Assembly: GCF_036785885.1 (NCBI RefSeq)
Contig: NC_092323.1
Span: forward strand, 1,900,501-1,964,500
Source: Coffea arabica
Lineage: Eukaryota > Streptophyta > Magnoliopsida > Gentianales > Rubiaceae
Length of the DNA: 64,000 nucleotides
Reading direction: 5' to 3'
A program made the position numbers and the translations under genes. The notes under the pieces are model-generated. The model made no database searches, was not told where the DNA came from, and saw only the letters and a list, made by a program, of their open reading frames with translations. Shown here piece by piece: positions 41,732 to 58,200 of this stretch; positions within the stretch are counted from its first letter, which is position 1; every line of letters begins with the position of its first letter.

Positions 41732-43773
41732 GGCCGCTGCTCACCTATTTTTCGTCTCTCTCTCTCTCTCTCTCTGGTAGCCGTAGTCTCTACTACTCCA
41801 CTTTCCCGCCAGTTTTGTCCACGCGCACCGCACGTAAGAGCATCCACAATGCTATTACACCTTGTGGAGTGTAATCCACATGCCACGTCAGCATTCCACT
41901 TTCTCCTCTTTTATTACACTTTCACTCACAATGGATTACACTCCACAAGGTGTAATAGCATGGGTCCACAATTAATCAAATATTTATTTTAATAATGCAT
42001 AACTCATATCCCATAAATAAATAAAATAATTTTTAAAACTAATTTTGTTATTTTTAAAAAATAAAGTACTAACTTTCGTTAAATTTTGTACATTTTGAAT
42101 TTTTTTATTTTCTAAAAATGATATTATTAATTTTTAAGTTTGAATAATATATCTTTTTCTATGTTTCAAAAATAATATATTTTTATTTTTTTAAAAATAA
42201 TTATGTAAGAAATTAAACAAATATTTGATACTTCAAATGCGAAGATATCATAATAATTCATATTTAATTAATAATTCGGAATATAATTAGTTGAACTCCA
42301 TAACATAATATTACATAAGTTAAATCAAATAAAAAGGCACAAAAGGCCCACATTCAATGGATTACACGCATCATACATGTGATGCGTGTAATCTTGGAGC
42401 CGTGTCATGGAGCGGTGTAATGGCTCCCCATTACACCCCCATTGGAGCTGCCCTGAGAGGTTTCGAAACAAAGCCCATCCGTCTCCGTAGTCCGTACATA
42501 CATATGCAGCCAGAACGTGGCCCAACCAAAATTATGGAATACCTTCCTAACCCGGCTCAGTTCTGCTGCTTATTAGTAGCAATCATTCAGAAGGAATTTT
42601 TTTCTCTTTTTTGGAAAATGTTATACTAGATTTTACTCTCTATGATCATTTGGGTTTCAAACAAATTTATTCTTTAATAGAATAAAACTCATCCATAGAG
42701 GGTTTTGTGAATTCGAAATGCCCAAAAAAAAAAAATCCCTAGTTCTGCACTAAAATATTACGACTGTTTTTGGATATTAATAAATAGTATTAGTAGCAAT
42801 ATTGATCTCATCCTAGAAGAAAGAAGTTAATTTTTATATAAGTATTTGCTTCATAGATTATGAGGATTTATTTCTTTGGCTTTTAATTTTCTTAAAACCC
42901 CTTCAAAACTTCCCAGACCGGACCCCTAGTGGCTAGTCCTCCACAAATCTAAACAGCCTTGAAAGTAAAGGCGTCTTTTCACTTCATTTTTGCAGGAATG
43001 ATGGTGTACTAATTTGCACAATCACCAAATTCATCGCGGCAGTGAAAAATGCAGTCAGACGGCATCATGGCACCTGAGTAAACCCCTGTTCCAGCCGTAA
43101 GACATTTTTAAAATCCAGTGATTCACGTTTGTTCCAGCCAAAAGACCTTCGTCGAATATGATAATTGACAGTTGCTCGGACATTACTAGCAGCATAACAC
43201 AGAACCTCTTATTTGGGTATGACTATAAGCCAGGTAACCGGAACATCTTCACTTTCTACAAGAAAATATATTTAAAAAGAATAAAAAATTCAAACGCAAG
43301 GAATATGAAGAAACTATCATATATTACACAATATTATATTTCTCTTCTAATTTTCCCTTTTTCCATGCAAAGGTCCGAGTCCCCCAGTATATGATGCCAG
43401 AAACTGAGATTGGTTATGAAATACATGAATTTTTAACAATGTCAGCATTGAAAGCGCCTGCTACTTGATCTATGGTCCTAGGCTTCCATAAATGAACTAA
43501 CTACAGAAATACATTACAGCACGAGAGGCCCTTTAAACTGCTTCGCCTTGCTTTATAACCAGCATAAACAGCAAGACCGAGTAAATTGCTTGAAACAGCC
43601 CACAAATCCTAATCTTTTCTTCTACCAGAATGCATCTTTCCCTCCTGCCGGAACATGGAAAGAGCAACTACGGCCCAGCACTTCTCAAAAATAATATGAC
43701 ATTTTCAGTCAAACCGTCAGAAAGTGAAATGCACTCAAATTGCAGCAACTGCGGGTTATCTTTCCCTCGTTAT
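41732..43773. other. FIGNL1 promoter and SWP73 3' side
   Basis: Immediately upstream of FIGNL1 are a (CT)n run (41,755-41,776) and the Harbinger-type element at 41,838-42,453. The remainder, about 42,500-43,773, is AT-rich with no recognised gene; its right part should contain the SWP73 3' untranslated region. Confidence 0.5.
41838..42453. mobile_element. PIF/Harbinger-type MITE, copy 1
   Basis: 616 bp with imperfect inverted ends GAGCATCCACAATG and, on the other strand, GGGCAGCTCCAATG. The flanks are TAA and TGA, a decayed version of the intact TAA duplication of copy 2. Subterminal blocks containing GGTGTAAT are themselves inverted. The AT-rich middle is nearly identical to that of copy 2 at 53,170-53,827. 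No transposase. Confidence 0.8.
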
Positions 43774-45805
43774 TCAAGTGCTTCCAGGGGCATCTGCGGG
43801 TGGTTTCCGGTTCAAGTATCGAATAACAGCATCTTCAACCCTGTTCATGACATAGTTAATTTGTGACTATTAACCAAGCCAAATGGGGAAGAAGTGCATG
43901 CGTATCTCAAACTTTTATGCACCACTATAGAACTCCAACAGCATGCAGGAGGGGGATAAAAGGCCCTCAAATAAATTTAGTAGTTTAACACAAGAAAATT
44001 GAGCTCTTTCGTGAACATAGAAGAATGAACAAGTACTTCATCTAACGATGTTTTGGTTAGAATATTCTGAGAACCAAATCAACCAAATGACAACCTCTAC
44101 AATGTTTGCAGTATCAAAGTAAGCAGATATATGTAAAAAGTAATCCTACAAGAAGAGTGCATACTTCACAAGCACTTGACCATTCTATTTTCATACAGCA
44201 AGAAGTTAGCACTTCAAATTACAAGTTGAAGACAAATAAAAGAGATGCAACCAAAGAAGAAACATACCATGGCTGGTTGTAGAAGTCAGACCGGCGCTCC
44301 TTCTCAGCACTACGGCCACCTTCCCCTACAACAAGCTTCAGATCCTTGTTTTGGGAATCAATTAAGGCATTAATGAATTCGACCGGTGACTGACTGAAAC
44401 CAAGAAAAAATGCTCTTCGTTTTCGGTGCTCATGTATCTTCCTGATGGCAGTACAAATTGCTTCATCACAGGCATCAATCTCTTTGGTTTTTTCTGTGTT
44501 GGCTAGCAAGGCATTCAATTCTCTCTGTATAGGGAAGGGCACATCAACTAATACATCATAACATGCAGTTCCAGCCGGGCTATTGCCAGAAAGTTTTATC
44601 CTGTGCTCCAAATGTATAGGCTGTGGTGGAGCCAAATGAGGGCATATCTTCTGCGTCACAGCAGTAAACTTCACCTTTCCCTCACCAAACACTTTATGGA
44701 GCGGAGGATCACAATTGAAATAAGAAGGATCATCCTGGCATTGCAACTTTCTAGCCTTTACATAATGCCATATAGCAGATATAATTCTTGCACGAGTATC
44801 AACCTCAATCCCAAGTACGTCCATCAGAGCAGCTGAAAGCTTAAATTTCTCAGGCATGTAATTCATCTCCAACCGTACATTGACAGTAAATTCTTGATCC
44901 CCTTTCCTTTTTACCTCGAATCCCTCATGAGGTGCTGAGGATCGAGCATTATCCCATATAATCATATGGTTATCGGGATACAATTTCTGGTCCAAAGATA
45001 TGGTGACTCTCTTGAAGAATGAAGAGAATTTTGGGTACATGGAACTCGTTTTCTGAAACATGGCAGCCTGTTCTGGGTCCATCCCCTCCTCCAGAATCCT
45101 CCCAATTATCTTCAGTGTCCAGGTAGGTGGTTCGGCATTGGGCTTCTTGGGAATTGTACGGATCTGATTAGCGAAGGTGTTAAATACATAAATGCGGAGG
45201 GTTTTCTGAATACAAGGGGGATTCTTAACGGCCTCTTGGATGTCAATTTTCTTTCTCGAGAGTGCAGCATCAACACGAGACTCAAACTCCAGGAGCTGGG
45301 TGTACAGGGAAGATTCAGGCAAAATAGCTGCAACTCTTTCATGCAATTGCTTCTCGGGGAGCTTTTGCTTTTTCCTCCGAGCAGCAGCAGAAAGCTCCAT
45401 CGTTCTCATTGGAGAAGGAGCGTTGGTGGTGGACAAGCCAGGTGGGCGTACAGGTGGTTTCTGCGGGAGCCTTTTGGCATTGGGGTTACCAGAGCCCGAA
45501 ATGGAAGGTGATGCAGAACCCAAATTGGCAAGCGCACTGGGATGAGGCTGGTTAAGGGATATACCCTGAGCTTGTAAATGGGCTTGGAACTGGGCATGCG
45601 CCTGAGCCTGAGCCTGAGCCTTTGATGCTTGAGCAATGGCTTGGGCATGAGCAGCAGAAAGCTGGGACAGATTGAATTGGGCGGGAAAGGAAGAAGGGAG
45701 TTGTTGCTGGGGATGGGACTGTGACTGGAGATGAGCAGCCATAGAGTTGCCAAAAGGGGATGGAACCCCCACACTCTTAGGAGCATTACTGTTGTTCATA
45801 GACAT
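43774..45805 (-). CDS. SWP73: SWP73/BAF60, SWIB-domain SWI/SNF subunit
   Basis: A core subunit of plant SWI/SNF chromatin-remodelling complexes (CHC/BAF60 group) in the nucleus. Two exons (minus): 44268-45805 and 43774-43840, joined at a split Trp codon in YNQPW, 534 aa. Residues 1-110 are Gln/Ala-rich ([18 protein letters not shown]), followed by a basic Pro-rich linker with [12 protein letters not shown]. The middle has [13 protein letters not shown] and [13 protein letters not shown]. The SWIB domain spans about 314-390 ([36 protein letters not shown]). The C-terminus has [17 protein letters not shown], then [12 protein letters not shown] from exon 2. A telo-box lies 0.36 kb upstream, and a sequence-rich leader probably extends to about 46.5 kb. 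In Arabidopsis SWP73A (At3g01890) neighbours sulfite oxidase. Confidence 0.96.
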
Positions 45806-46167
45806 GATTTACAGCTAAACCTACTAAAACCAACCTACAAACGAGTACCAACCCGATCAAAATGGCGCATTCACATAGGCACCAGAGAGAGAGAGAGAGG
45901 CTACGTTGAACAAAAGAAAATAAAAAACCTAAAAAGGACTCGAATAAAACATCCGAATCATGGTGAATTCTTGAGCAAATATAACAAAAACATACATACA
46001 AAAGAAGAGTTGAGTATTGCCAAATCTAATTACGGTTCATGCTCCCACTCACAAGATGTCGTGGAGATCCCAAAAGAAAAAAAATAAAAAAGAAAGGATT
46101 ACAGCACAGGAATGGCAGTCCTTACAAAACCTAAATAAGAAAAAAAAAAAAAAAAGCTGAAGCCCTA

Positions 46168-46176
46168 AAACCCTAA
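46168..46176 (+). promoter_or_regulatory. Telo-box (AAACCCTAA) upstream of SWP73
   Basis: AAACCCTAA lies 363 bp upstream of the SWP73 ATG. Telo-boxes are frequent in promoters and leaders of plant translation and cell-cycle genes and can be bound by TRB proteins. It is a single short match, so chance cannot be excluded. Confidence 0.4.
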
Positions 46177-48760
46177 GTTGCGGACTGAAATTAGAATAGA
46201 TTTGGGATAAAACGGGTGCAGAAAACGAGAGTTAAAAGCAGTAATTGGGGGAAAAGCACAGAAAACAATAATAAGCTGAAGAAGCAAAGACAGGAGTGTG
46301 GAATAAAGGGGAAGTAAGAGGAAAGGGCCGGACAGAAGTGACTTCTTACAACAATTTGAAACCTCCCCCTCGCAACTGTTTCAGAAGAATGACAAAGCCG
46401 CAACCAACCAACCGACCGACCAAGAAGAACCTCTCGCGACGTTTTCTTCGCGGCTACCGCTGCGACTCCATTAAACACATCAAAAGAGGAGCCTCCACCT
46501 CCACTCACTCACTCGACTCGTCCGTCTGATCTTCTCTCTCTCTCTCTCTGTCTGACGCCTCGATGAGAACTTCAAATAACTGTTTGTTTCTTTGATTGCC
46601 TAGTTCATTTGTTTACCACTTCTAGATCCAGTCCACAAGGCTTAGAAGCAGGCCCCTTTCGGTATTGCTTGTCGCTTTGGGTTTATTATATTAATCTATC
46701 GGCTGATCTGGGCTTCGGATTCGTTATATTTGGGCCGAGTGCCTTCTCCATTACTTTCTTCCTTACAAGTAACAAATTGTGGAGCTCTTTCTATGCTATC
46801 AACAAAACACAACACATGAAAATTGAAATTTTATTTTTTTAAAAAGTTTTTTAAAGTCATTTTTGTATTTTTCCATCAAAGCTGATTTCCAACCAGATCA
46901 CGCCTCAGTTTCGGGTTTTTTAGCAACTGACGCTCTAACAGTGGACATCTTTCTTTTTCTTTTTTTGGGTTTGGGAGAAAAAGGGTTTTGGAGGGGGGTG
47001 TGTGTGTGGTTGGTTCAATTCTGCTGGAAAGGAGGGTCTCACACTCACTGCCAAAAGATCAGATCAAATCAACTTGTTAGCTCAAAGATCAGATCAAATC
47101 AAATACTCCAGTAGTAGCAGTATTAGGAAATTGTTGTTGTCCTGTGCCTGGTGGTGCAGCCAACTATTTCAATCACCAATCAACTGAAGAACGGCTGTAA
47201 CACGGGGTGTAATTTCTGTTTTCCAACTCACTACCGCACTGGCTTTTTGCGAGCGACATGGCCTCTTAACTTCGGATTTGGGACAGAACAGTGGAAACCG
47301 TTCGGACCGATTTTGTGCATTATATACTAGAAATAACTCAATTTACACACAATATAACTCATTTTATACGACGTGTAACTATTCCTTGTATATAAAACGA
47401 TGTACAAGATGAAATTTTCATCTGGACCTTATATATATATATATATATATAGGCAAATCTTGACCATCAACCTTCTGAAACGGTTGCAGGAACCATTCCT
47501 GTCCCAAACCCCTCAACTTCTTGCCACTCGTTTTGAGAGTACAGATTTGACAGGAAAAGAAATGAGAGACAGACAGATGGTTTTTTCAGTCGTCGTTACT
47601 CATTTGGGAGTTTTTTGTTACTCATTTGGGAGTTTTTTGTGACAGAGGAAAAGAAGAGAAACAGATGGGTTTAGAAAGACACATTGACTGAAAACAAAGG
47701 AAAGTCAGGAGGAACGTTGGTAAAATATTTTTCAAAATGCATGCCCACGTAATTTATACTTCACTGAACATTGAAGTACATTTTACTGATTTACATATAT
47801 CCCAAATCCTCCCATTTCTTCCCAAAACTCCCACACTAAGCATTAGTGATTCAACGAATGAGCAGCAGCACCACCGAGAATCCGCGTCCTCCATTCTTGT
47901 TCAACTGCCCATTGAAAAGTTTTTTTTTTTTTTTTTTTTCTAAAAAAAAAAAAAGAAGCAAAGGGAGAGAATCAACGGAGTACTAATACCAAATCATGAG
48001 CAAAAAAGCTTCGAGCACAACAACATACCAAAGTACTCTCTAGTAGGTCTAGCACATCATGATCAATTCACAAAGCAAACTTTGGCACGGTACCTAGAAA
48101 GGCAGGGAAATTCCCACTAAACTACTCAAAACCCTATAACACCATCAAAATCCTCGAAGCAAAGTTGGCTGATAATGTATGCTACATAGTACATACACAT
48201 TGCCTGATCTACACCATGGATTGGAGGCTAGTTCATGTGCTAGATAGATATATTTTTTTTCGCTTCATCTAACTAAACGACCACCACCGAAACAGATATT
48301 TGATAATCTCATCAAATCTCAACAAGACAAAAAGGAATGTGTAGTGAAAGGAAAGGTAGAACACGTCACAAAAAAGTTTTACCTATTTACACAGAATGAT
48401 TCCAAGATCAACAAGTACAACAACCTGCCCAACTATCAAAATCAACAATGCCATCCGATACGATACCATAGCAACAGACTTTAACTTCGTCCTCCAACTA
48501 CTATATCAATTACTATAAGTCAGTTGAGCATTCATTAGTCGGCGGCAGAGAAATGGTCTACCATTTTCGGTTAGAACTCACAAACACAGACACCAAACCA
48601 CTACCCTGCAGTCAAAGAAGCAAGTGGATTTTAATCATGTAATGATTGCACACAGACCCAAGTCTCCTTTTTCTTATTTATTTATTTAGTTTACTTTTTG
48701 AGTTTTTATTTAGCAACAACGGAGATTATGTAAACGCCCCTTCAGCTGCTTAGCCTCATG
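46177..48760. other. Intergenic between SWP73 and the kelch gene
   Basis: The left part (to about 46,560, ending in a (TC)n run) is probably SWP73 leader or promoter. The rest has no recognised gene. It has a (TA)n run at 47,432-47,452, a 22-bp tandem duplication (GTTACTCATTTGGGAGTTTT) at about 47,597-47,640 and long homopolymer runs at 47,920-47,954. Confidence 0.5.
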
Positions 48761-50068
48761 CTATGCTACCATAATGGAACAATTTAGAATGAAGTGACTC
48801 AACCGGTTTCTACCACCATCAAGAGGTTTCCATGGCTGTTCACTCGCTTCAGGATCTGGGCAGCAGGTGTATATGGACATGCAGTTCCCAGCACATGAAT
48901 ATGATGATGCTCCTATTACCAGCAGCTCGTCTCCTAAGGATTTAAATGCAACTCCCCATCCTCTGTTGAAATCTGCTCTTACTGGGACCGGCCCCAAATG
49001 CTTCCAAGTGTTGGTTTTTTTCAAATACACCTTCAGCTGGTTGGAAGAAGCTTCCAGCGAGTATAGCTCATTATTTACAACAGCAACCAGAGGTGGAGAG
49101 TGGCATGTACGAACTGGATCATCTTTAAACATGTCTGGTATTAGTTCCCATCTGTTTTTGCTCTCGTCAAAATATTCTCCACACGTAAGTTCTCCATTCT
49201 CATTTCGCCCTCCAATAACGTAGAATCTATTGTCCATGAAGCAACCTGAGCATAGCTTCCTTCTCCTTTTCATCCTCGGGAGAGGGTCCCAGAATCCAGT
49301 TTCAGGATTATACTTTTCAGCTGTGTCATAGACTTCGCTATTTGCACCAGCACCAACACCACCAGCAACAAAAGCAGAGGTACCACAAGTTGTAGAAGCA
49401 AACAAACATCTTGGACTAATCATGGAGGGACCTTTGAACCATTGGTTTGTGGCCAATTCATACCTCCAGATGACAATTCCATCAATCTCCCTGCCCGAAA
49501 CAAGCAGATGTGTCCCAGCACAAAGTGACTCCTTATCTCCAGAATGAAAACATGGATCAGATGGCACAAATGGAAGCCTCATTCGAGACTTGAAGTCCCG
49601 ATCAAATGCCCACCAACTAGTTTCCCCACTTGCCAGCATGAAAACAGAAGGTTCTTTAAACCCAATTTCTCGTCTAATCTTGAATATCTCACCACTCGTC
49701 AGGAGAGTTAAGCACCTCTTGTTCACAAAGCATAACTTCCAATGCTCCGACCTAGGTAACCTAGCGAAAATCAGATTCTCAACTTCATAGTCCAATGAGG
49801 GAAGGAAAGAATAATCTGCATCCTGAGGTTCTTCACCTACCGATGTAATGGCACCACCATCCTCAGAAGGTTTAGGATCCGTCTTATGGTCCAAGCCGTT
49901 TCCAGTCTCACAAACTCTAACCTTTTTTGGTGGTGAAGTGCCATGTAATCTGAACAAGTTACCATCATCATAACTCAAATCAAATGTGTCTTTCTCAGTC
50001 AGGCAGTAACAATACTCATCCAAACCCTCATTTTCTTGTTCAGTTTCTTTTCTCTTGTCCTTAAACAT
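48761..50068 (-). CDS. Kelch-repeat F-box protein, miR2111 target type (TML/HOLT-like)
   Basis: The protein resembles the small F-box/kelch group that includes Arabidopsis At3g27150 and legume TOO MUCH LOVE, root regulators repressed by shoot-derived miR2111. A single coding exon of 435 aa runs from the first in-frame ATG (MFKDKRKETE). A polar N-terminus (1-85) precedes a weak F-box region (about 88-130: FLPSLDYEVENLIFARLPRS, WKLCFVNKRCLTLL). Kelch blades follow at about residues 150-380, with LLVSGREIDGIVIWRYEL, SAFVAGGVG, YNPETGFWDPLPRMKRRRKL, FYVIGGRNENGEL and WELIPDM. The miR2111 site is at codons 80-86. The frame continues upstream without an ATG, and the leader may include an intron. 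Substrates are unknown. It keeps the Arabidopsis neighbour GHS1. Confidence 0.92.
   Translation of the reverse strand: MFKDKRKETEQENEGLDEYCYCLTEKDTFDLSYDDGNLFRLHGTSPPKKVRVCETGNGLDHKTDPKPSEDGGAITSVGEEPQDADYSFLPSLDYEVENLIFARLPRSEHWKLCFVNKRCLTLLTSGEIFKIRREIGFKEPSVFMLASGETSWWAFDRDFKSRMRLPFVPSDPCFHSGDKESLCAGTHLLVSGREIDGIVIWRYELATNQWFKGPSMISPRCLFASTTCGTSAFVAGGVGAGANSEVYDTAEKYNPETGFWDPLPRMKRRRKLCSGCFMDNRFYVIGGRNENGELTCGEYFDESKNRWELIPDMFKDDPVRTCHSPPLVAVVNNELYSLEASSNQLKVYLKKTNTWKHLGPVPVRADFNRGWGVAFKSLGDELLVIGASSYSCAGNCMSIYTCCPDPEASEQPWKPLDGGRNRLSHFILNCSIMVA
49812..49830 (-). promoter_or_regulatory. miR2111 target site in the kelch/F-box coding region
   Basis: The plus strand reads TAATCTGCATCCTGAGGTT, identical to the first 19 bases of miR2111 as I recall it. 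The minus-strand mRNA is therefore perfectly complementary to the miRNA seed and expected cleavage positions (10/11). It encodes EPQDADY just before the F-box. The next two bases differ from the miRNA. Confidence 0.85.
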
Positions 50069-51540
50069 AGTCCCCAAAGCCTTCAGTTCTGTGTATTCTC
50101 ATTGGAAAAAAGTAAAAGAAAGAGGCAACAGGTCATCAAGTGATGAGATGTTGTGAAATCTATTAAACAAAAGAGAAATGCAACTAGAGTCCAACAAAAT
50201 GTTCATGCAATGCACTAATCTGAACTTGGGAACAGATAACATCCTTCGCATCCTTTCAACTCAAATGGAAAATGAGAATAAGTTAATATAGCAGTTGGAA
50301 CAATTGGTGCCATTGTCAAAGTTCCCAAAGGATGAAGAACAAAATGTAAACACATGGACAAACTCAGATGCAGGTGGCAAATTTTGCAATAATACACAAT
50401 AGAATGCCTAAAACATAGAAAAGAGCAGAATCACGAAGTGAAAATAAGACACAAAGAAATTAAAGCACGTAAGAGTAGCTACTTGACTATGAAAGTCTAC
50501 TTTACTATCAAATTAGTATCCAAGGAGAAATGTGTAAGAGAAACCCAGCAAGGAAAAAGTTATTGACATGCAGACAAGAAGTGATAACAATCCCCTCCCC
50601 CTCCTTCAACCCAACAAAAACAAAAGCCCAAAAAAAGAAAAAAAAAAAAAAGGACAATCTTTGCTTAGCAAGGTAATAAAAGGTCCGGCAATCAGCGAAG
50701 GATAACCATTCTCAGCTTGACAAGATCATAACTTTTCGCCATCCCACACCCACCAAAAGTAAGAGAAAAAATAGAGAGTGGGGCACAAGTAGATTACTTG
50801 AGGGGGAGGGAAAAAATGCTATGCTACAAATTAGAGAGGAATTAAACATGCGCAACTCCGATGTAAAAATAATAAATAGGGAAGAACGAAGGTGAATGGA
50901 TAATCAACAAATAAGCCAAGGATCAAACAGACCTCAGAGCAGAAGTTGTCAAACTCAAAGATTACAAACATCACAGCCAGAACCCTAACGGCAGCCTTTT
51001 ACCCTTTTTTTTTGGGTCAAAATACTAACCAACTTGCTGGAAAGAATCAGCAGACAAAAAAAAAAAAGTAGTCTTGCATAAATGATTACAAAGCTGAAGG
51101 AAAAGAAAGCATACCGACAAAGACGAAAGGGAAGGACGGTTACATTGCATAACAAAGTAAAGAAACGATGCAGGGAAACCAATTGGGGATTATGAAGTCT
51201 GTATATTTCCTGGTTTTACAATACTGCTATTAAGGAAGTACGAAAGTGGAAGAGAGAAAAGGCACAAAGCGAGTTCTAATATAATACATATCTGTCTCGC
51301 GTGTGAAAGATCGAAGGCAAAGGCAAGGAAGGTGGGTTCTTTCTTTTTTTGTTTTCTTGCTTGTTTGGAGTCGGAGTCGGACCCCTCCAACTCCATTTCC
51401 AGGGAGAGAATAAAATACCCCAGACATGAATGTTTATTATTTATTGTTTTGATTGAGGAGAGTGATTCCAAACAATCCCAAGCAACAACGTTAGCATCGT
51501 CCATTTCGGAAAAGTAGAGAAAAGGTGGAAATTTAAAACT

Positions 51541-52506
51541 TAATTTCACAAACCTCCCCTGAGGTTTTTAATAATTACAGAGAACTCCTCTCGATTTTTA
51601 AAACTTACACATACTCCCCTACTTTTATTGTTTATGTAACAATGTGAGTTCAACATGCTATATTTTCTTTCAAAATTTTGAAATTGCCCTTTTGTATAGA
51701 ACTAAGAAAGAAAAATATGGTATACTCAAATTTTTTCTTCCATACTTTGCACAAATCAACAAGCCGAATTCCTAACAACCATCCAATCATGAGTTTTAAA
51801 TTCAAGTAACTATCCAAAAAATCCTAATTTGCAAATACAGTATCAATAGTTGTCATAAAAAAAACACACACACATAACTCCTCATTGACAACCAATTTTA
51901 TACCCCAAAATTAAATATCAATATTCAAATACCTTTTCAATACAAGTTAATCCACTCTAAAACTACTATTACAACCCATTCTATGGCCTTAAAATATTAA
52001 TATCTCAAAAGTAGATAATAAATTTTACCTCTACAATAAAATCATCACAAAAAATTTAAAATTCAACGAAAGAAATCCTTACGTAATTATTGACATTTGA
52101 AAAATTTTTTATTGAGAACAAACAAAATTTGATAAATTTCACATCTTTAGTTCTTATTCATATTTTAATCATCAATTTCATTATTTATTTCTCTATCACC
52201 AGGAGTCTCTTCATTTCTTTTAGTTTGAGACACAATCTACTCCATCTGTTAATTTTGTAATTTCAATTTGCTAATACCCACAAAATTAAAAATAATAAAA
52301 AGATGGTATAGCAGTATATTAACTATAAAAGAGATGAGCAAAAATAGATGAGAGACAAAAAAAATGGACTTTTTTTGGGTTTTGTAAATCTATTGCCTTA
52401 AATTTGTAACTGTCTATCAAGTGGAGGATATTATAAATATTTTACTATGTCAAGGGATGTAAGTGTGATTTCTTAAACCTTGCCTTGAGGTTTCTGAAAT
52501 TATCCC
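51541..52506. mobile_element. Long-TIR MITE (Mutator-like?), copy 1
   Basis: The left end AATTTCACAAACCTCCCCTG is matched inverted by GGGATAATTTCAGAAACCTC read from 52,506 on the other strand. The arms share a repeated CTnnnGAGGTTT pattern over about 50 bp. The interior is AT-rich without coding. The same family is better preserved at 61,334-62,279. The superfamily is inferred only from TIR length. Confidence 0.65.
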
Positions 52507-53169
52507 ATTTTATTTTACCCTCTCGCTTTGCTTCACTTGGTGTCTCTACTGGAAAGTTATCTTGCCTTCCTCGTCAGCACTAGTTTTGTCCTATACATAC
52601 ATATATATATATATATACTCTGTTCCGTCTTCGAGACGTTTGACACTTTTGAGTGGGCGGTGGGCGCTTGGAGATCTCTTTCCTCCATTTTCTTTCCTCA
52701 GTCTCTAATTGTTTACGCATTACAATTCCTCAGACGCGCCAATAAATGGTTTTTGTTTTTTTTGGGGGTTCAAAAACCTCATATCGTCAAAACATACAGA
52801 GATAAATATGGTTTACTTTTTTTTTTATTTTTTTCCTCAGGCAGTTCTGCAAATTTCTGACAAGTAAGCATACTGCGTACATAATGGAGTATTACACAAA
52901 TCTCTTCTTCTTCTTCTTCTAGAAGACAAAAGGACCATGTGGCAGTGATAAAAGAGAACGGCCCCGAAAAGTTTATATCATCATCCTATCCTTAAATTGA
53001 TTGATTCCCAGCCATGGCTAATTAAATAACGACGAAACGCTGGGAAAGTGCCACGGTACGGTACAGCGCCCTTGATAGTGGAATTGTTGGAAATTCCGTA
53101 GGATAAATAAAAGGTTAAAGGTGCCAAAGCCCGAGGCATCCCTCCATCCATCCATACCGCTCACCCTAA

Positions 53170-53827
53170 GAGCATCCACAATGCTATTACACTTTGTGGA
53201 GTGTAATCCACATGCCACGTCAGCATTCCACTTTCTCCTCTTTCATTACACTTTCACTCACAATGGATTACACTCTACAAGGTGTAATAGCATGGGTCCA
53301 CAATTAATCAAATATTTATTTTAATAATGCATAACTCATATCCCATAAATAAATAAAGTAATTTTTAAAACTAATTTTGTTATTTTTAAAAAATAAAGTA
53401 CTAACTTTCGTTAAATTTTGTACATTTTGAATTTTTTTATTTTCTAAAAATGATATTATTAATTTTTAAGTTTGAATAATATATCTTTTTCTATGTTTCA
53501 AAAATAATATATTGTTATTTTTTAAAAAATAATTATGTAGGAAATTAAACAAATATTTGATACTTCAAATGCGAAGATATCATAATAATCCATACTTAAT
53601 TAATAATGAAAAATTTATTAGTTGAACTCCATAACATAATATTACATAAGTTAAATCAAATAAAATACAAATAATAACAAAATGGATTACCGTTGCCATG
53701 GGCCTTTATCAATGGATTACACGCATCATATGTATGATGCGTGTAATCTCCATGACACGGCTCCAATGGGGAGCCGTGTCATGGAGCGGTGTAATGGCTC
53801 CCCATTACACCCCCATTGGAGCTGCCC
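53170..53827. mobile_element. PIF/Harbinger-type MITE, copy 2
   Basis: 658 bp flanked by intact TAA duplications (53,167-53,169 and 53,828-53,830). Ends GAGCATCCACAATG / GGGCAGCTCCAATG. It is nearly identical to 41,838-42,453 over the first ~500 bp. The right side has two long palindromes: GATTACACGCATCATA with its complement (about 53,714-53,750) and GACACGGCTCC with GGAGCCGTGTC (about 53,753-53,782). Confidence 0.85.
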
Positions 53828-53848
53828 TAAGGCTAAAATAATACTAGT

Positions 53849-54335
53849 AGGTTTGGATAGTGAAATTATTCCAAATAGTCCTCCGTCACACTTTGATAGT
53901 TCTGTTTCTTTTTTCACACAGTTTAAGAAAAAGTAGTTAACTTTGTTGGAAAAGTAAATTTAGATTGCTATTTTCCTAAAATATCTTCACATTAAATATG
54001 GTACAACTTTATGGGAACTTGAATTGATGGTAAAAAAAGAATCAACTCTCATTAAATGGGGTAAGTTTATAGTAACAACTACTTACATTGAATAAGGGTA
54101 TTTTAGGAAAATTAAAATACAACTACATTCTTCAATTGGAAAGTGGACTACAATTTGGGACAGATAAAAAAGGAATACAGGATTATCAAAGTGGGACGGA
54201 TGGAGTATAATTTCGCTTGCATCATAAACACATTTTTCAACCCACCTTTTTATATTTTCAATTACTTTTTATCTCATGTACATCACATCACAAAAAGTGC
54301 TACAGTAATTATTCAAAATAATATTTCAAATACTA
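53849..54335. mobile_element. MITE of the 5,703 family, split by a Stowaway
   Basis: The left part (GGTTTGGATAGTGAAATTATT, to 53,877) and the right part (ATTTCGCTTGCATC from about 54,208, through CATCACATCACAAAAAGTGC, to 54,335) are contiguous in the 5,703-5,860 copy. The terminal TATCCAAACA is missing at the right. Confidence 0.7.
53878..54205. mobile_element. Stowaway-type MITE (Tc1/mariner) nested in another MITE
   Basis: The left end CCTCCGTCACACTTTGATAG and the right end CTATCAAAGTGGGACGGATGGAG-like terminus (ATCAAAGTGGGACGGATGG) form inverted repeats of about 28 bp. TA dinucleotides flank both sides, as expected for Stowaway. About 328 bp, no coding. Confidence 0.75.
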
Positions 54336-55262
54336 CTACTACTTAATATAATAATAGTAGTGTGGTGTGGATTAAATTAAGTAATAGTACACACTAATGG
54401 GAAAAAAGGTAGTAATATGTTGGATGTGGTGTGTGTCCACTTTGATTAGCGGACTAACAAAATATTCTGCTTTTCTTCAATCCCAATCTATACCACTATT
54501 ACTCTTGTCACGTATCAAGAAAAAAAACTTGGATTTCACTCACTTGTCATAGTCGTTCGTGTAGGCTGAAGCATTTTTGCATAATTGCAAGCGTGTCTCC
54601 AAAAAATGCAGTCACCAAAACCATCACAATGAATGAACGACAAGCATGTTAAGGATTGGTGGAGAAGGCACTTTTTCTACTTTTACATGTGCACCGTACC
54701 ATGCAGATATGATTGGCGGATGACATTAATTTAGCGCTGCGCATTGGCTTCATGTAACCTAACCTAACGAGGACACTGCCGCCTCATCATCAGTTGTAAA
54801 CTCAATCACGCAGATATAACTTTTCAGTACTAAAATACAACTACTATATGTGCTCTTGACTGAAAATCTGTAGTCAATTTAAATCTTTTGCTTCAAATTT
54901 GACTCTCTATTTCCATTACAACTGAAACTGACCTACAAATGGTGGGGATTATTTGCTACTGCTACTATACTATTGATCATCAAACCCTTGCTGTTGACAG
55001 ATCCCTCCATCCAACCCCTTTGATTTGATTTGAGAACCAGATTAGGCCCATATGAAAGAACCAGTTGATGGACTTCTAGGACAGGAAAAAAATGTCCCCT
55101 GGTTGAGGCTGTAATGATCCAAATTTGGCTCATCGACGACCGGCCCGTCTTATGAGACTTGTGACACTCTGCTCCAGTCCCTCTCAGCTGAGCTGAGGTC
55201 TTTTCATTTATTTAGTTTTTATTTACGGTTTTTGGGTTTTATCCAACACCGAAATCGAGAAT

Positions 55263-58200
55263 ATGGCTGCTGCAGCCTCATCCATAGCAAACCTCCTCTC
55301 CTTCTTCGCTCCCTCATCAAAACCTCCAGCTCTGCTCAAATTGCCACAGCCGTCCCACCTCTTCATTCCCACTTGCTCCACCAAGGATGGGTTGGCTTTG
55401 GCCGCCGCCACCCGACTTGAAAACCAGCAGTACCTGCCCCTGTCATCGTCGACTGATAATGATCTTAATAATGGGCTGATGTCGGTGGTTTGCCCGTCTC
55501 TTGCTTATGCTAACACGCTCTTCTTTAGATCGGCTTACAACGTTCAGGTGCTTGTGGATGAGAACGAGCCGGAAGAGAAGCTCCTGAACAGGTTCCGGAG
55601 AGAGGTGATGAGGGCCGGCGTGATTCAAGAATGCAGGCGCAGAAGGTTCTTTGAGAACAAGCAGGACGAGAAAAAGCGCAAGTCTCGCGAGGCCGCCAAG
55701 CGCAATCGCCGAAGGTAAACCCCTTTTATACCCTCCCTCCACCCCAACCACCCTTTCCCTTCAGAACAGACGGGATAAATATGAATTTTTTTTTCCCATA
55801 GAATATACCTCACGTGGTAACTGGGATTTTATGGTACCACACTAACAAAGTAAGTATAAGTTGTTACTTAAACGTTGGGATGATTCCTCTAAGTAAAAAG
55901 GAAAGGTAAAGGTAAGTGTTAAGAGACATTGCGGAATTCGAATACTTCTACCGTACAGTTGCAGATAAGTATTTTAGTAGCTTAGACGCCATCATCTTTC
56001 TAAATGGAATTTCTCCAATTTCAGCTCCTGATGCCTAGAATTCTAGGCTCCAAACTGCAGCAGCTGCCTGTGTTTTTCTCCGATGCATGATTTCTCTTTC
56101 CAAACAAGATGTGCTTCATTTGAATTATTTTTTTCATTCTTTACTTTATGAAGGTTCTTGATGCTAGCTTCTACCTGCTTACATTTCTGCATATATGTTG
56201 GTCAATCCAAGTATGGATGATGGTACTTGATTTCTGAAAGGCCTCGTTGGGAAGCATGTTCGGATCTGTCTTTGAAGAATACATTTCTTGCATCTCAGTT
56301 ATTGTTGCTGCAATAAGTGATTTATTCATATTCTGATTTGGTTGAATTCCAATTAATGATCAAGACAAATATTTGCACTGGGTACATGAAGATTTTCCTG
56401 GTTCAGCGAGATGCATTGAACTGATTTTGCCAACATGTCTCGTAGTTTGTTCACTGCAACTAAAGCAAAAAATCACCCTTGGATCTTGTATTCTGGCAAC
56501 CTTTTTTTTTTTTCAGTTTTAGGCACCTTAAACCGCGCAGTTTTTGCCATTTTTTGTAAGCTAGTCATTCAATTTTTTACTGGGATTATTTTATTTCTCT
56601 GTTTGACACTCTGCTCGCTTCCGATGTCGTCCTCTTAATCTTTTAATTGCAACAACCTACCACTCAGATTAGTACCCACTTCTTTGGATGTAGATGTTTC
56701 CAACGCCTAGAAATCCAAAATATAAACTGGTTTTTTGGGTAGTTTTGGGTACAATTGCATGGTTAGTTTTTTTCACTAGTGATTAAGTCACACTCAAACA
56801 TCTGTGCAACTAATAAAAATAATCCTTACGTACGGAAAATATTCTCAAAAAATTGGTTGGATAATCACGACTTCATTAAGAAAAGGTATCAAATTCTCAA
56901 AAACCCACTCCTTTCTCTCTCTTTCTTCTCCCACATCAAAGAGTACTAAATCTTCTATGGCCCTCCCCGTTGTTCTCTCTCCACCATCTCCCTCTCCAAC
57001 CATCCGTCCCCACTCTTTCACCACTTTTTGCTCTACTCTCATAGCCTTCAGCCTACTCAAAATTTTCCAACAATCTGCATAATGTTGACCCCTTTTTATG
57101 ATTGCCCATATCTCCTTATCTCTTTCCCTGCTGTAGTTACATGATGGCTGATGCCGTCGTGATAATAGGGGTGGTGAAGGTGTTGGTTTGTGGTGGACAG
57201 GTGGTTCCCTTTCCATTATTTTCCAGGGTTGCCATTTGATTATCTTCTAGTTATCTAGATCCCTCTCTCTTCTTATATTGGTGATCGTCAGTGGTGGATG
57301 GTAGTGATCGTTGTGGTGGTGTGTGTGGTGAACTACTGTTGGTGGTGATTATGTCTAAAGTGACGATGTAAGTAGAAGCAAAAGAATGAAGGATAGAATA
57401 GGAAAAATGAAGGATGCCGCATCAGTGGTAATGACTTCTCGTAATATGATGTTGTACATGGTAGCAAACTCAAATTGGTCTCACATTTTGACAATAATTA
57501 TTTAGAGAACTTGATGAGTTAAAAATGTGCAGATGGATAACAATTTGGCAGATTGGCAGTTACTAACATGGTTTCAAGCATTGCAAATTTTTTTTTGTTT
57601 GGTTGGGCATGGCTTTTGGTGATTGTATAATGTTTGTCCTTGATTTGCTTGGGGCAAAAATGAGAAAACAAAAAGTGGCCAAAAATTTTAATGCCAAAAT
57701 GGTGTTGATGTAGGAAGATAAGGGTTTCCAAACACTCCCCCCCCCCCCTCTCCTCCCCCCCTTGAGGCAGAAGCATAGGAGGATAAGTGAAACATTTTGA
57801 TGGTACTTAAATTCACAGTTGGCTAATCATTTTAACCTAGAATGGGGATGCTTCACTATCAGGTGTTTGACAGTGTTTGAGTTTTCTTAAGAAATTGGAC
57901 TAATTAGATAAGCTAGTGCCTGGTGGTGTTTATAAATGCAATCAAAGGACCGAGGGAGCAATAGAAGAATTACCTGAAGATGCAGGAAAGTTGATTATAA
58001 GCCATTTAATCCTAGATCATTTATAACATTCCTTGAGTTGAATATTTCATGATTGACGCAACAGTGTAAATTTTCTTCTGTGAACAAAATTTTCCATCAA
58101 TTAGGAGATTGTGAATTTGTTGGTTTGATTTCATATGCTCAAGTACCAAAACAAGTGTGTGTGTGTACGTTTACAACTTTACATGGGTATAAAAGTAAAA

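Follow-up and report, generated by a model that had tools for sequence, protein, structure and literature searches.

The stretch of Coffea arabica DNA analysed here, 64,000 nucleotides long and referred to as the window, carries on its minus strand a CDS of 435 codons in a single open frame, at 48761..50068 (coordinates with the stop). The encoded kelch/F-box protein is the putative HOLT/TML of Coffea arabica, and we number its codons from the sole ATG among the first 60 codons of the ORF 50068..48761(-). Residues 90-127 (49688..49801, minus strand) form an F-box-like stretch that scores 15.1 bits against the Pfam F-box, below the 20.5-bit cut-off. Downstream of this stretch Kelch_1 is matched above its own Pfam cut-off in three stretches (E = 4.3e-23), and a match to Kelch_FKB95 that lies below its cut-off gives the span of a kelch repeat region at approximately residues 200-388 (48905..49471, minus strand). 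Reading the translation by eye, we also found a basic PPKKVR stretch; a nuclear localisation signal is among the features given for TML (PMC11668588). With its kelch repeats behind a putative F-box, the coffee gene resembles legume TML (Lotus TML; Medicago TML1 and TML2) in architecture, and Arabidopsis HOLT is likewise a kelch/F-box protein (PMC3673897). Based on this architecture and on the pairing site described below, the kelch/F-box gene is most likely the coffee HOLT/TML.

On the strand opposite the gene, the window reads as miR2111 (TAATCTGCATCCTGAGGTTCT) at 49812..49832, so that the minus-strand mRNA carries a predicted miR2111 target site over these positions. The miR2111 query sequence matches the form printed for Brassica napus miR2111c (PMC3599582). 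Sequence comparison shows that plus-strand positions 49812-49830 are identical to miR2111 bases 1-19 (19/19), the same run that the first-pass annotation had placed opposite the gene strand, in the coding region and ahead of the F-box. The mRNA pairs with miR2111 by Watson-Crick bonds at bases 1-19, by G:U at base 20, and is mismatched at base 21. The pairing is near-perfect and intact over bases 2-13, and the unbroken Watson-Crick run covers both the seed and the slicing bases of the miRNA. The 19-base match is contained in codons 80-86 (EPQDADY; 49811..49831, minus strand), ahead of the F-box-like stretch that starts at residue 90. From the ORF coordinates, the pairing site begins 237 bp into the CDS; the MtTML1/2 sites likewise lie close to the start of the CDS, at 143 and 134 bp (PMC11668588). 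The pairing geometry predicts slicing opposite miRNA bases 10/11, between 49821 and 49822 on the minus strand, in agreement with the cleavage position of about 49,821 proposed previously.

MIR2111 hairpins on C11 and C12

The other two genomic copies of the 19-mer are MIR2111 hairpins, one on C11 and one on C12. Both loci contain the miR2111 sequence, a loop and star-side sequence (GTCCTCAGGATACAGATTACC). The 106-nt miR2111/miR2111* hairpin is identical at the two loci and folds at -43.2 kcal/mol (z -5.85), with 0 of 200 shuffles equally good; on C11 as on C12, folding places the miRNA and the star on opposite arms of a stable stem. Foldable miR2111 hairpins are thus encoded by the same genome as the target, and the objection that this genome might hold no miR2111 locus, raised in the first-pass annotation, falls away. 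A comparison with 4227 Rfam families gave no match to either hairpin at E ≤1, and the P1BS motif (consensus GNATATNC) is absent from the sequence up to 1.5 kb upstream of the miRNA at both loci. Judged by their sequence, the C11 and C12 loci are taken as MIR2111 genes.

The alignments of the MIR2111 flanks are 94.7% identical (1,926 columns, 183-bp block included) and 88.5% identical. Within the 183-bp block, which surrounds the hairpin, C11 and C12 do not differ at any position (positions 1467-1649 of L001 and the matching stretch of L002). Many gene matches in this assembly fall on chromosome pairs, e.g. C1/C2, C7/C8 and C11/C12, as expected for 11 homoeologous pairs. Arabidopsis resembles coffee in having two MIR2111 loci and a site in the CDS of HOLT (At3g27150) (PMC10700597), whereas in coffee, an allotetraploid, the two loci look homoeologous to each other. 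Larger numbers of MIR2111 copies are given for legumes, with 7 in Lotus, 6 in soybean and 15 in Medicago, as compared to the two loci of coffee (PMC8321092).

Predicted control of the kelch/F-box transcript

The site in the CDS of coffee HOLT/TML is very probably genuine, and by analogy with other plants miR2111 from the two homoeologous hairpins most likely guides slicing of the transcript. Mature miR2111 would direct ARGONAUTE to the kelch/F-box mRNA, which, as in other plants, would be sliced between 49821 and 49822, leaving less of the kelch/F-box protein, a proposed E3-ligase adaptor. If it acts as in Arabidopsis and Lotus, this protein would stimulate the initiation of lateral roots in line with the supply of nitrogen. 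The first-pass annotation had placed the gene under TML/HOLT-type control by miR2111, including an effect on nodulation. The occurrence of the site in a kelch/F-box gene and of miR2111 genes in the genome lends support to the first part; coffee is not known to nodulate, and the nodulation role does not transfer to it. In Lotus, soybean and Medicago, by contrast, miR2111/TML is used for nodule control. A root role under shoot-derived miR2111 is reported for Lotus and Arabidopsis, and these two plants are also the source of the graft evidence for movement from shoot to root (PMC10700597); an older paper cites work in which miR2111 seemingly is not mobile in Arabidopsis (PMC6296076). A review describes the site and the miRNA as well conserved across legumes, Arabidopsis and tobacco (PMC8321092). 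Our results suggest that coffee, too, has an intact miR2111-HOLT switch, as known in legumes, Arabidopsis, Brassica and tobacco.

Nicotiana benthamiana is an asterid, as is coffee. Its F-box/kelch target also has the site in the CDS, and cleavage is demonstrated there (PMC6296076), as compared to a predicted cleavage in coffee. In the same report miR2111 was not visible on N. benthamiana Northern blots, and phosphate starvation brought no significant change in the level of the target transcript despite its cleavage (PMC6296076). The steady level of target RNA as miR2111 rises under phosphate starvation, described there for both N. benthamiana and Arabidopsis, led to the suggestion of translational repression (PMC6296076). 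By this reasoning the coffee site might be real and yet serve mainly for translational repression, or as a sponge of miR2111, instead of for slicing, which we consider highly unlikely. A miRNA mimic would be expected to have a central bulge, whereas the coffee site pairs perfectly at bases 9-12, which is the slicing configuration. RACE ends known from several species also favor slicing: 5′ RACE placed cleavage of the N. benthamiana target in 8 of 26 clones (PMC6296076) and detected cleavage of soybean Glyma16g06160, in a paper that also cites cleavage of Arabidopsis At3g27150 (PMC3673897). In Brassica napus, an F-box/kelch ORF is among the miR2111 targets given in a degradome paper (PMC3599582).

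A resemblance that arose by chance and has no regulatory meaning is a further candidate, and we regard it as extremely unlikely. When the peptide EPQDADY was held fixed, 3,185 of 200,000 random synonymous recodings drawn from the codon usage of the gene (1.6%) reached 19/19, and therefore a peptide under conservation purely as protein could bear the match at modest odds. The search statistics point the other way. At three or fewer mismatches to the 21-mer the window contains one matching place, as compared to a mean of 0.01 in 100 shuffles, of which one gave a match. The whole genome (1,197,963,845 bases, 131 contigs) contains three exact copies of the 19-mer, two of them being the MIR2111 hairpins, where approximately 0.009 matches are expected (2.4e9 start positions, equal base frequencies). 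No copies with one mismatch were found in the whole 1.198 Gb, and the backwards control of the 19-mer gave 0 matches genome-wide. The shuffle mean, the rarity of the 19-mer in the genome and the empty backwards control indicate that the match is not due to chance. In addition, the gene is of the type that miR2111 is reported to cleave in other plants (PMC6296076, PMC3673897, PMC3599582). The recoding result fits, and weakly suggests, the constraint on the EPQDADY codons at the RNA level, besides that on the protein, that the first-pass annotation proposed.

The plus strand does read as miR2111, but there is only a negligible probability that this strand serves as a miRNA precursor or gives rise to an antisense RNA resembling miR2111. 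Folding rules out an antisense hairpin at the site (z +0.35 on the plus strand and +0.93 on the other, with no hairpin in the surrounding 106 nt that holds the site in an arm), a miR2111* query has no match in the window at ≤3 mismatches, and none of the Rfam families scores as high as its gathering threshold there.

Searching the genome for further targets at ≤3 mismatches to the 21-mer yielded 13 places, with 6 for the backwards control. These 13 comprise two miR2111 arms, two star arms, the window site and eight others; each of the eight has 3 mismatches. None of the eight lies within a target-sense open frame that reaches 62 codons, and, the MIR2111 loci apart, the window site is the only one found genome-wide with fewer than 3 mismatches. 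The frame check leaves room for a target in a UTR or in a spliced transcript, such as L032, where the mismatches fall only at bases 16, 17 and 20. For grapevine, the predicted targets of vvi-miR2111-5p include, with a score of 0, a transcript that carries the annotation root hair cell development (PMC7278995). Other protein matches to the kelch/F-box protein within its own genome are at most 45% identical. The pairing site occurs in none of the 11 paralogue loci examined (L005-L014 and L023, drawn from 19 extracted and 59 other matches listed), the best of which match 13-14 of 21 bases; the rest are covered by the genome-wide 19-mer search, which gave no further copy at ≤1 mismatch.

The target gene and the homoeologous MIR2111 pair are candidates for the control of root branching in response to nutrients in this perennial crop. 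The coffee pair is an ordinary member of a regulatory pair that has already been described and leaves the general picture unchanged; its interest is confined to the coffee setting and a target of possibly single origin. Judging by titles and abstract openings, which are not proof of absence, none of the papers listed for coffee together with miR2111, microRNA degradomes or kelch genes and lateral roots reports this target. A 2019 study of C. arabica root mRNA and small RNA under nitrogen starvation (Funct. Integr. Genomics), cited in PMC8438446, may hold miR2111 reads.

Copy number of the target and the C13/C14 chromosome end

The DNA of the kelch/F-box CDS was found at one place in the assembly, giving one copy of the target, while MIR2111 is retained on both homoeologues. 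The surrounding stretch, window positions 44219-55715 (C14:1.944-1.956 Mb), contains the kelch/F-box, SWIB and ribosomal S21 genes and has no close copy of them on the partner chromosome C13 in the assembly. The SWIB search found one partial match on C13 at 40% and a fragment of 104 residues on C8 at 94%; a SWIB relative at C14:1.41 Mb (57%) has no comparable C13 match in the same search. Further along C14, an open frame at 2.107 Mb has no second place in the assembly. At C14:2.40-2.41 Mb a partner is present, with 100% identity over a 660-bp frame and 99.43% over an alignment of 10,005 columns with 39 mismatches and 9 gap openings, a closer match than that between the MIR2111 homoeologues. 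A 16-kb DNA search for the homoeologous region scored 39 of 6,859 candidates, all of them repeats, and did not return the window itself. Among these scored candidates, dispersed-repeat matches to window positions ~53162-53848 and 41834-42458, the main ones at 88-99%, fall on 18 of C1-C22.

The start of C13 (1-10000 and 30001-40000; L045, L046) consists of a tandem array of gypsy-type retroelements with a period of ~8.3 kb. A PPR-like frame at C13:0.305 Mb (L053, C13:300001-310000) is 98% identical to C19 and does not match C14 in this way. Because of the retroelement array at its start and the C19-like stretch at 0.305 Mb, this end of C13 looks misassembled, misjoined or translocated.

For one end of chromosome 7, two papers describe a fixed change in which eugenioides DNA has taken the place of canephora DNA (PMC11018527; PMC10805892, Chr7c:1-1,252,944). 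If C13/C14 correspond to chromosome 7, as the order of the pairs suggests, the target would lie within or beside this exchange, and a collapse in the assembly is possible. The lack of C13 copies across the C14 stretch, with a partner present at C14:2.40-2.41 Mb, agrees with a collapse or an exchange at this chromosome end. We tentatively raise the possibility, which we hold to be somewhat doubtful, that the target is kept in one parental version only, through a fixed homoeologous exchange in which the chromosome 7 end of canephora gave way to eugenioides DNA. Such an exchange, with both parental MIR2111 loci kept, would mean that the canephora-derived miRNA acts only on the target of the other parent. 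Two observations count against this reading: the span given in print does not extend to 1.95 Mb, and the 99.4% identity at C14:2.40-2.41 Mb falls short of full identity. A true loss of the target on C13 is also possible.

Beside the kelch/F-box and SWIB genes, the window contains a ribosomal protein S21 gene at 55263-55715 (Pfam S21, 3.3e-16) that is probably of the plastid type. The biased region of chromosome 7 is described as enriched for chloroplast-associated genes (PMC11018527).
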